Source: a virus
Strand: one strand, 5' to 3'
Length of the DNA: 26,068 nt
Virus record (IMG/VR): IMGVR_UViG_3300033143_003467
Span: 1 to 26,068 of that record
Under the pieces are notes generated by a model. The model made no database searches, had not been told where the DNA came from, and was given only the letters and a program-made list of their open reading frames with translations. Within the stretch, counting starts at the first letter, position 1. Each line of letters begins with the position of its first letter. Both the position numbers and the translations under genes were made by a program. This document shows positions 2,387-24,734 of this stretch, piece after piece.

Positions 2387-2533
2387 ATGGAAAAAATTAA
2401 ATTACCAAAAGTAGACCCAAATAAAGTAAGAAAATTAAATGAGGGTGTAGATAACGAGAGTGGAAATAAATATATAGTAATGACAATTGTCTTTTGTATT
2501 GTAATAATATCATTATTAGCAATTGTTTTATAA
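2387..2533 (+). CDS. Small single-span membrane protein, 48 residues
   Basis: ATG at 2387 to TAA at 2531 encodes a 48-residue peptide. It has a polar N-terminus (MEKIKLPKVDPNKVRKLNEG) followed by a C-terminal hydrophobic helix (about residues 29-48, VIVMTIV-like to ISLLAIVL). It is probably a tail-anchored inner-membrane peptide. The stop codon overlaps the TAAC that begins the attC-like site, the typical arrangement for integron cassettes. First gene of the rightward unit. Function unknown; a small phage membrane protein could act in lysis or exclusion. Confidence 0.5.
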   Translation: MEKIKLPKVDPNKVRKLNEGVDNESGNKYIVMTIVFCIVIISLLAIVL

Positions 2534-2659
2534 CGGCTCGTATATGATTTTGTAGGTATTGTAAACCACTAATTTTGAATTACCTACATACTTTGAAATG
2601 AAGAAATAAATTTGAATTATTAACCTAACTGCCTATAAATTATATACTTTGTTATATGC
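2529..2659 (+). other. attC-like recombination site (integron cassette type)
   Basis: The two ends are imperfect inverted repeats arranged like attC core sites: TATAAC-GGCTC-GTATAT (2529-2545) and ATATAC-TTT-GTTATATGC (2642-2659). The right end has a GTTRRRY-like box (GTTATAT) and the left its complement, with inner L-like boxes separated by short unequal spacers. The arms extend further with GATTTTGTAGG against CCTATAAAT. The centre has a perfect 8-bp inverted repeat, TGTAGGTA/TACCTACA (2551-2558, 2581-2588), a variable terminal structure. The total of about 130 bp is normal for attC. No integron integrase is in the window. Confidence 0.55.
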
Positions 2660-2685
2660 TGGGCGGTTTTAAAACGGAAAATATT

Positions 2686-2964
2686 ATGAACAAGACTATT
2701 TGGAAATACGAATTAAAGATTGATGATTTGCAAAACGTGACAATGCCAATAGGCGCAGAAATACTAAGTGTGCAAATGCAAAATGATACACCTTGTTTAT
2801 GGGCTTTGGTAAATCCTGATGAAAAAGAAACTGATGCAAGAAATATAGAAACTTTTGGAACAGGACACCCAGTTACTTACGATATGGGTGTAACACGAAA
2901 ATTTATAGATACTTACCAAACAAGAGGATTGGTATTTCACGTATTTGAATATACTGGTGTGTAG
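2686..2964 (+). CDS. DUF7352-like protein, apparent integron cassette gene
   Basis: A 92-residue protein from the ATG at 2686, beginning MNKTIWKYELKIDDLQNVTM. The pattern IWKYELKIDDLQNVTMP, then IGAEILSVQ, LWALVNP, FGTGHPV and a closing FHVFEY is one I know from small proteins (DUF7352 type) found in phages and cassette arrays. The function is unknown. An in-frame ATG at 2656 lies inside the GTTATATGC box of the attC-like site and would add LGGFKTENI; I prefer 2686. The gene is bracketed by 20-bp inverted repeats (2640-2659 and 2969-2987), so it looks like one captured cassette. Confidence 0.65.
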   Translation: MNKTIWKYELKIDDLQNVTMPIGAEILSVQMQNDTPCLWALVNPDEKETDARNIETFGTGHPVTYDMGVTRKFIDTYQTRGLVFHVFEYTGV

Positions 2965-2968
2965 CCTT

Positions 2969-3010
2969 GCATATAACTTGTATATAAACGCAACTTTTGT
3001 ATTACAAAAG
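2969..3010 (+). repeat. Left half of a second attC-like site plus hairpin
   Basis: GCATATAAC-TT-GTATATAA (2969-2987) is the reverse complement, apart from one base in the spacer, of the right arm of the first attC-like site. It begins 5 bp after the stop of the cassette gene. A hairpin CTTTTGT-ATT-ACAAAAG (2994-3010) follows. No GTTATATGC partner is seen before the peptidase gene, so this site looks truncated. Confidence 0.5.
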
Positions 3011-3044
3011 ACTATAACAAATTGAATATTAATAATATAAAATT

Positions 3045-3539
3045 ATGAAGCATATATCAAAAAAAGAAATGTATTACTCCTCAACTGCTATTCGTTTGGG
3101 AATTAATAACACTCCGACACTGGAGCATTTTAAGAAATTAGATTTACTCGGTTTATTAATTTTTGAACCAATAAGAACTCATTTTAACGTCCCTATTAAG
3201 ATTAATTCAATGTATCGATGTCCTGAACTCAATAAAGCAATCGGAGGCAGCAGAACGTCTCAACATTGCCTTTGTGAAGCTATTGATATTGACGATACTC
3301 TCGGCGGATTAACTAATAAAGAAATATTTTATTTTATTGTCAATAATTTAGATTTCGACCAATTAATTTGGGAGTTCGGAACATCAAAAAATCCGGCATG
3401 GGTACATATTTCTTATAAAGTTTATAACGAAGAGAAAAATCGTAAAAAGATTACTATTTCATACACGAAAAATAATAAAGTAAAATATGCAAGTTTTTAC
3501 AATTTAGAAGATTTTGAATTTTTTAAAGTTAATTTATGA
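3045..3539 (+). CDS. M15-family peptidase, probable endolysin
   Basis: A 164-residue single-domain protein without a signal peptide. The M15/VanY-type metallopeptidase pattern is clear: SMYRCPELNKAIGG (residues 55-68), then SQHCLCEAIDI with zinc ligands His74 and Asp81, and WVHIS with the third ligand His121. In the family consensus SxHxxGxAxD the glycine is usual; here it is Cys77. Known members cleave peptidoglycan peptide bonds, and small phage members are endolysins or virion-associated lysins. It heads a close-packed group of small genes, two encoding membrane proteins that could supply the holin function. Next gene's ATG overlaps its stop (ATGA). Confidence 0.8.
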   Translation: MKHISKKEMYYSSTAIRLGINNTPTLEHFKKLDLLGLLIFEPIRTHFNVPIKINSMYRCPELNKAIGGSRTSQHCLCEAIDIDDTLGGLTNKEIFYFIVNNLDFDQLIWEFGTSKNPAWVHISYKVYNEEKNRKKITISYTKNNKVKYASFYNLEDFEFFKVNL

Positions 3540-23546: not shown

Positions 23547-24734
23547 TTAAATATTTGGTATATATTCTTTACCGTTTATTTTTATTTCTAAACTATTATC
23601 TAATTTATACATTCTGTCAATTATTACTTGGCAATACATAGGGTCTAATTCCATTCCATAGCATTTACGTTTTAATTGATGAGAGGCTACCATTGTCGAA
23701 CCTGAACCTAAAAAAGTATCAATAATAATATTTTGTTTTTTGCTACTATTCAATAAACAATTTTCAATTAATGCTACTGGTTTCATTGTGGGATGTAGTT
23801 TATTTTCAGTTCGTGGGATTTCCCAAATACTTTTTAAAAATTTACCTTTACTATAAAAATTATGTTTATTTTTCCAACCATACATTATTGGCTCATGTTT
23901 ATAATCATAATCTAATCTCCCCATCGAAAATACTGGAGCTTCTTTTACCCATATCAATTCATGTTTTACTTTCCATTTCACACTCATCATCATCATCATC
24001 ATCATCTGGTCTCCCCCTTGAGGCATTGTAACATAAAAAGAACATTCATCTATTGACACATCAAAAACATTTTTAAAAGTTGGTCGCCATATTTTCTCTG
24101 CAGTTTCATTAACGGTTAAATTATCATTTTTTATTTCATTATATCTTTTATTTTTAAATATTTCATTTGACTTTTTTGTAAAATTAACAGAATATGGGGG
24201 ATCAGTAATATATAAGTCTGCCTTTTCGCCATTCATTAATTTAGCTACTTGTTCGCTATCTGTACTATCACCACACATTAACCTATGTTCGCCAATTTCA
24301 ATTAAATCACCTAAAACAACATCGACCTGCTTTGTATCTTCAATGCTATAATTATCTTCTTCTGTTTCTAATTCTTTATTTTCAAAGTCAAGTTCTAAAC
24401 CCCAACTTTCAAGACTATCACTATCCCAATCAGACTGTAATAATTCCCAGTTCCATTCTCCAAACCCAACATTATCAGCAATTTGAAACCGTTTCTTTTC
24501 ATCTTCTGTAAGTTCTGATGCTTTCACAACCCATTCATCCGGTATCTCTTTAAATCCTAAATTTCGTAAACATATTAATCGTTTATTACCTCCCAATACC
24601 ATGTTATCATTATCTATAACAAGAGGTCGTAATTTAAGCATTTTCGGAAATTCTTTTAATGAGTTTTCAAGTTTTGAAAGGTCATTAAATTTCTGTGGAT
24701 TATTTTGATTTATTTTTAAGTCTGATAATTTCAT
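23547..24734 (-). CDS. ParB-like domain fused to a beta-class DNA methyltransferase
   Basis: A 395-residue protein. Residues 1-75 are ParB/sulfiredoxin-like (NNPQKFNDLSKLENSLKEFP; RPLVIDNDNMVLGGNKRLIC). The methyltransferase starts near 135 with LGDLIEIGEHRLMCGDSTD, then the catalytic DPPY (178-181). SAM-binding FLGSGST (341-347) comes after it with HPTMKPV before it, so the order is DPPY first, as in beta-class N4-C/N6-A enzymes. Such fusions are known beside phage terminases; they modify phage DNA against host restriction or at the packaging signal. A run of seven methionines (244-250) comes from (CAT)7. TerS begins 2 bp after its stop. Upstream are two hairpins and a promoter. Confidence 0.8.
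   Translation of the reverse strand: MKLSDLKINQNNPQKFNDLSKLENSLKEFPKMLKLRPLVIDNDNMVLGGNKRLICLRNLGFKEIPDEWVVKASELTEDEKKRFQIADNVGFGEWNWELLQSDWDSDSLESWGLELDFENKELETEEDNYSIEDTKQVDVVLGDLIEIGEHRLMCGDSTDSEQVAKLMNGEKADLYITDPPYSVNFTKKSNEIFKNKRYNEIKNDNLTVNETAEKIWRPTFKNVFDVSIDECSFYVTMPQGGDQMMMMMMMSVKWKVKHELIWVKEAPVFSMGRLDYDYKHEPIMYGWKNKHNFYSKGKFLKSIWEIPRTENKLHPTMKPVALIENCLLNSSKKQNIIIDTFLGSGSTMVASHQLKRKCYGMELDPMYCQVIIDRMYKLDNSLEIKINGKEYIPNI
23985..24005. repeat. (CAT)7 microsatellite coding for seven methionines
   Basis: Seven perfect CAT units on the plus strand encode Met244-Met250 of the methyltransferase. Slippage would add or remove methionines without shifting the frame, so it would change a loop length rather than switch the gene off. 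Confidence 0.9.

Follow-up and report, generated by a model that had tools for sequence, protein, structure and literature searches.

The stretch of DNA analysed here (the window) is the entire IMG/VR virus record IMGVR_UViG_3300033143_003467, of 26,068 bp. The record can be assigned to a tailed phage, since a terminase, a portal, a prohead protease, a tape measure and an endolysin were found by family search; we infer a host within the Bacteroidota, the only grounds being the site type described below and the base composition. The locus of interest is bordered on the left by a 48-aa ORF with one predicted membrane stretch and no family match (2387-2533, plus strand), belonging to the phage DNA, and on the right by the endolysin gene (Peptidase_M15_3, phrog_894; 3045-3539, plus strand). 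Between both are found an imperfect inverted repeat (2529-2659) and a gene encoding a 92-aa protein (2686-2964, plus strand, with a likely start codon at 2686). The latter had been described in the earlier note on this DNA as DUF7352-like, and indeed matches that family (PF24043/phrog_3848) with an E-value of 8.6e-28. Its product is predicted to be a small, all-beta protein, and comparison of the fold with the PDB gave no match; in Flavobacterium phage immuto the DUF7352 gene stands, according to the annotation, in a normal run of genes. Elsewhere in the record, a fusion of ParB-like and DNA methylase parts (phrog_498, N6_N4_Mtase; 23547-24734) adjoins the terminase genes, and another inverted repeat, GGACCAAC ... 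GTTGGTCC (1155-1251), flanks a T-rich stretch, with several ACCGTT/AACGGT motifs in succession close by, and is not of the attC type studied here.

The repeat at 2529-2659 has the layout of an attC site, with outer R boxes carrying AAC/GTT, inner L boxes, unpaired spacers and imperfect symmetry, and all the elements from which an integron-type site had been proposed are present in the sequence. On the plus strand, its left side consists of TATAAC (2529-2534), the spacer GGCTC and the L-type inner box GTATAT (2540-2545), which pairs with the L-type inner box ATATAC (2642-2647) of the right side; the equivalent stem covaries in 70 relatives. The right side continues with the spacer TTT and with GTT plus a cassette-specific extension, ATATGC (GTTATATGC, 2651-2659), the extension being identical to the reverse complement of 2969-2974. 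The stop codon TAA of the 48-aa ORF (2531-2533) forms the left edge of the site, overlapping TAAC as had been noticed, and the exchange point would lie within the core AAC (complement GTT, 2532-2534), between 2533 and 2534. Read on the minus strand, the order is R'' GCATATAAC, spacer AAA, L'' GTATAT, ..., L' ATATAC, spacer GAGCC and R' G|TTATA. The R' of the window, GTTATAT, is no strict fit to GTTRRRY, having T at the third R, and those of its relatives (GTTAGGC, GTTGGC and GTTGTAC types) mostly fit at GTTR. As for the perfect internal stem TGTAGGTA/TACCTACA (2551-2558 with 2581-2588), its presence stands, as an alternative stem, but not its role as the main stem of the attC, which is formed by the pairing of TAGGTA with TGCCTA, adjoining L'. 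An internal copy of the 5' arm is common in sites of 80-125 nt (2551-2588 in the window, and also L188 and L196), where the arm could pair with either partner; such copies are enriched in mid-length and long sites (34/119 against 20 expected).

Positions 2524-2661 are matched with 34.5 bits (E 4.4e-6, 1.09 Mb searched) by a covariance model for which 70 short sites of other loci served as the training set, the window and the long sites being left out; this bears out the attC-like character of the site. With the filters off, the same model does not recover it, because of its long insert. The folding of the site, suggested earlier as a check, came out against it: free folding is at the level of shuffled sequences (z -0.3 to -0.7), and the forced attC fold reaches -5.2 kcal/mol, 95th of 107 long sites, although the 6-bp L boxes are intact. 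Nothing in the window was matched by Rfam, and BLASTN of the site against plasmids returned chance matches only.

The site belongs to a large family, of which more than 260 members were collected from Bacteroidota genomes and phages. Box-pattern searches yielded 50 and 72 stretches from viral contigs, and genome contigs gave at least 118; among the matches listed, those from genomes come overwhelmingly from Bacteroidota (Flavobacteriaceae, Saprospiraceae, Aquimarina, Maribacter and others). The family consensus is AAC-GGNNN-GTATA...TATAC-WTT-GTT, with length classes near 44, 57-60, 85-90 and 110-125 nt. Whether the arm recurs beside different genes had been suggested as a check, and the site type of the window does adjoin very many of them. 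Dense arrays also exist: a viral contig of 38 kb has eight attC-type model matches in some 4.2 kb (L003, 322-4528), and Polaribacter phage P12002L has four matches to the model built here. Six viral matches sharing one repeated sequence (L012, L019, L022, L036, L040, L042) were excluded as probably due to chance, and those in L020, L079, L161 and L167 also look like chance.

Because the window and a few relatives served to draw up the search pattern in the first place, a match of the searched letters is partly circular in the case of the window; the covariation and cassette-behaviour tests are free of this circularity. Among 70 short, non-redundant sites, strong covariation is seen in the part of the stem that the searched letters do not cover, with 144 double-change cells against 44.9 in shuffled sets and a covariation of 0.405 against 0.106, a signal which is abolished by sliding the stem partner. 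The compensatory changes proper to an attC stem are, therefore, found at the level of the family.

Short inverted repeats between genes, with a weak free fold in the case of the window, could also be ordinary mobile repeats or terminators (REP/MITE-like), shuffled by homologous recombination between them. Such repeats would not predict that the two ends of a gene unit match while the outer arms of a site do not, and this is what was observed. Across the gene units of 45 neighbouring site pairs, the cassette ends are complementary at 3.67 of 6 positions, against 2.30 in shuffles (sd 0.17, highest of 2000 shuffles 2.89), whereas the two outer arms of one site agree at 2.24 of 6, the chance level, as predicted by cassette exchange at the site cores. 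In the window, the 6-nt extension ATATGC is found at either end of the gene unit (6/6 match).

Moreover, units recur in different surroundings. DUF7352 relatives with 65% protein identity to that of the window occur in two other phages, L003 and L004, which share the DUF7352 block with 94% identity from the TATACATT...TTGTGC arm to GCACAA. The DNA outside this block is unrelated, and sharing stops at the predicted borders R' and R''. The gene is common to both phages and the hairpin is not, a difference which a simple exchange point leaves unexplained. The same cassettes, with about 99% identity, stand in different order in the phages L217 (3088-4926) and L223 (1541-2804), where shuffling can be seen directly; the phage pairs L031/L051 and L035/L037 carry the same units beside different neighbours, and one unit is common to the phages L053 and L054 and to a genome record, L075 (Lacinutrix MAG). 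The behaviour of integron cassettes, the same unit with different neighbours and borders at the cores, is therefore seen in L003/L004 and in other cassettes, and the possibility raised at the outset that the arms are always fixed around the DUF7352 gene does not hold.

The side on which exchange takes place could be deduced from what travels together. When two sites share only the DNA on the GTT side, they have the hairpin in common as well in 15 of 19 pairs, whereas it is shared in 1 of 17 pairs with only the AAC side in common (Fisher 1e-5) and in 1.3% of random pairs. The hairpin thus travels with the GTT-side DNA, placing the exchange at AA|C, or G|TT when read on the complementary strand. 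These counts rule out what had first been assumed, namely that the hairpin goes with the gene on the AAC side. Exchange at AAC instead of inside the hairpin is not what REP/MITE-like repeats would predict either, nor are arrays beside a tyrosine recombinase (see below), and such an origin appears very improbable. It follows that the true attC is the reverse complement of the searched pattern, 5'-TAACAAW-GTATA...TATAC-NNNCC-G|TT, and that the window carries it on the minus strand, the opposite of the plus-strand orientation implied by the earlier note, with a unit of approximately 2534-2976. Exchange at G|TT of a cassette made up of gene and attC is supported by comparison for the family, the window copy itself displaying matching ends only.

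The cassette unit of the window would accordingly comprise 443 bp (2534-2976), including the hairpin, the DUF7352 gene and the R-box extension, as delimited by the logic of its borders. Its right border, GCATATAAC (2969-2977), is the complement of 2651-2659 and begins 4 nt after the end of the gene at 2964, and not 5 as had been given. The right-hand stretch as a whole (2969-2987) reads GCATATAACTTGTATATAA. This element had been taken for an attC half site, an interpretation that has to be reduced to a cassette border with at most a remnant: the R box of the cassette itself is the one secure part. The adjoining TTGTATATAA (2978-2987), after which no matching L'/GTT arm follows, may have been left over from a neighbouring site or belong to the original target, and GTATATAA could likewise come from a second site, as its remnant, or from the target. 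A second complete site at 2969-3030 was not matched by the model, with filters on or off. Joining the flanks gives TTTTATAA|CTTGTATATAA, with the stop codon of the left ORF kept. Phages close to the window were sought through the endolysin and the terminase; the nearest ones had 52% and 40% identity and none of these relatives was a closely related phage without the cassette, so that the window has no empty-site comparison. In the relatives sampled, no site was found except one in L345 and those already known.

Of the two possibilities offered earlier, a cassette inserted into the phage lysis unit or a small attC cluster without an integrase, the former is favoured by an attC-type site and a one-gene cassette beside the endolysin gene. 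Regarding the latter, the record does lack an integrase, but a single complete site is not a cluster, the CALIN definition demanding two or more attC sites within 4 kb and no integrase. Comparison demonstrates, at the level of sequence, a family with covarying stems, complementary unit ends, exchange at the AAC/GTT core and units reordered between phages. We consider it highly probable that the window phage carries one integron-type cassette, consisting of an attC-type hairpin and the DUF7352 gene, which was moved by a trans-acting tyrosine recombinase at AA|C. According to this mechanism, the site would fold when single-stranded and be cut by the recombinase at AA|C (on the minus strand, G|TT), whereupon the unit would move as a circle into another such core, as may have happened at the G|TT core between the small membrane-protein ORF and the endolysin gene.

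Whether the insertion can still move is another matter. The element might be a fossil, that is, a genuine cassette insertion that has lost its mobility: the right-hand partner site is absent, the forced fold of -5.2 kcal/mol is among the weakest of its length class, and the right-hand sites have collapsed in L003 and L004 too. Against this, neither the L and R boxes nor the 6-nt match between the ends has decayed in the window, and in integrons one intact attC can be enough when its partner is attI or a secondary site. We give loss of mobility and its retention equal weight. In any case, the window copy is probably poorly mobile today, its mobility being doubtful on account of the weak fold and the lack of a complete partner site to the right.

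Since no IntI/XerA-like recombinase was noticed among the ORFs of the 26,068-bp record, the enzyme would have to act in trans, from the host or from another phage. Canonical IntI, with membership set at a TIGR02249 score above 265 bits, was found over the cut-off in two of 31 site-bearing genomes. Most of the others encode a tyrosine recombinase of 357-490 aa, which matches TIGR02249 in two pieces and below the cut-off (217-229 bits) and the family NF040815 above the cut-off. When aligned to true IntI, the Bacteroidota enzyme is devoid of the IntI-specific insert, present in the true IntI of L243 and L244; this additional domain near patch III has been described as necessary or essential for integron recombination (PMC9668308, PMC8138268). 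The chromosomal form has about 100 extra N-terminal residues with no Pfam match.

The sites lie close to this recombinase. Model matches were found in 8 of 20 gene neighbourhoods chosen only for the recombinase and in none of 19 controls, nearly all from the same genomes (p 0.002); overall, 24 of 54 recombinase neighbourhoods have sites. An insensitive whole-genome model search, which scored only 82 candidates per genome, detected sites in 5/30 recombinase-positive and 0/30 recombinase-negative genomes. Chromosomal arrays of 3-5 attC-type sites adjoin an IntI-like recombinase in L300, L301, L438, L440, L441 and L260, and many such recombinase genes are found at the ends of contigs, where site repeats would be expected to interrupt the assembly. 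The N-extended enzyme keeps a constant geometry, upstream of the cassette genes and co-directional with them, and the cassettes beside it are canonical with respect to the attC (33:0 downstream, 26:2 upstream). A shorter recombinase (264-311 aa), whose gene diverges from the direction of the attC as it does in class 1 integrons, occurs in 8/50 site-bearing viral records, often within 0.6-4 kb of a site; strong matches were found in 0/40 control records, but these are smaller, which leaves the viral enrichment unproven. The probable enzyme is, then, one of these IntI/XerA-like recombinases without the insert, adjacency being evidence, though not proof, that they act on the sites.

The sites could instead be recombined by a classical IntI of some Bacteroidota or of a co-occurring bacterium, the adjacent XerA-like recombinase being incidental. 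IntI1 does recombine an attC of P12002L in E. coli (PMC9892861), and two of the 31 site-bearing genomes possess an IntI over the cut-off. However, the remaining 29 do not, the sites cluster in fixed geometry at the other recombinase, and the neighbourhoods of two true IntI genes contained no site, except for one at the far end of the same contig, where a short IntI-like gene is also located. A classical IntI is accordingly regarded as unlikely, and the insert-less enzyme is retained as the candidate.

Phages and chromosomes differ in the orientation of the genes. Relative to the searched pattern, flanking genes are forward in viral contigs (89:6 and 89:7) and reverse in genome contigs (forward:reverse 4:96 and 13:63; Fisher 1e-42 and 1e-25). 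With respect to the true attC, chromosomal cassettes follow the canonical order, gene then attC (96:4 and 63:13), whereas the genes of phage cassettes, including those of the window and P12002L, are antisense. The co-orientation of gene and attC proper to integron cassettes is thus a feature of the chromosomal cassettes and not of the window or the phages. Our guess is that the antisense orientation results from selection for transcription from phage promoters.

The carriage of attC by phages is already known. Both attC sites and CALINs have been published for 21 phages, using existing attC models, and include those of a Bacteroidota phage, P12002L, called by HattCI and HattCI+INFERNAL, one of whose attC sites is active with IntI1 in E. 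coli (Qi et al. 2023, PMC9892861). P12002L and the window have in common the site type, single-gene units, the orientation of the phage genes and the lack of an integrase in the array. Neither the Bacteroidota site family nor the orientation rule is described in that work, and the same is true of the exchange-side evidence and of the recombinase beside the arrays (PMC9892861). Taxon-specific attC models have been published, none of them for Bacteroidota (PMC8352920), and complete integrons are reported to be very rare in this phylum, IntegronFinder 2.0 having found one, in Salinibacter ruber (PMC9024848). The site family, the insert-less recombinase beside the arrays and the mirror orientation in phages are apparently new, no description of the family, its recombinase or this orientation having been found in openly licensed papers.

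The present system resembles canonical integrons in its R/L-box hairpin site, G|TT core, cassette ends, arrays and site-specific exchange. It differs in the recombinase, which lacks the IntI-specific insert, in that attI was not found here, in the N-extended enzyme being co-directional with the cassettes instead of divergent, and in the phage genes being antisense to their own attC. The Bacteroidota recombinases match over the cut-off the Xer/XerA-like NF040815 family ('site-specific tyrosine recombinase/integron integrase'), from which the chromosomal forms are set apart by their N-terminal extension (approximately 100 residues) and their location beside attC-type arrays. In pdif modules, too, sites of tyrosine recombinases delimit single genes; these are short duplex sites for XerC/XerD, unlike the hairpins of 44-160 nt with L and R boxes described here.

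A wider proposition would be that one integron-like economy of cassettes is common to Bacteroidota and their phages, run by an insert-less sister group of tyrosine recombinases instead of canonical IntI, the phage pool being a mirror image in which genes lie antisense to the attC, so that phage transcription reads them and array orientation is preserved; the chances of this being correct seem evenly balanced. If true, cassette arrays would be common in Bacteroidota and would have been missed so far on account of their different sites and recombinase. Natural comparison would then be a means of examining the insert that has been called essential in integron recombination, and phages would be regular cassette carriers, with many DNA methyltransferases that could help to evade host restriction.

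Finally, as regards cargo, the 86 phage cassette genes scanned are mostly small unknowns; those recognised include DNA methyltransferases, a Mom protein, HTH proteins and an RNA ligase. DNA methyltransferase cargo is also found in the P12002L/phage attC study, and the recurrence of several DNA methyltransferase families together with Mom suggests anti-restriction cargo. In L441 (1718-9160, Flagellimonas) and L108 (6958-7420), each cassette gene start is preceded by a near-identical leader of about 380 bp ending at the AAC core, and the cassettes there may carry their own promoter region.
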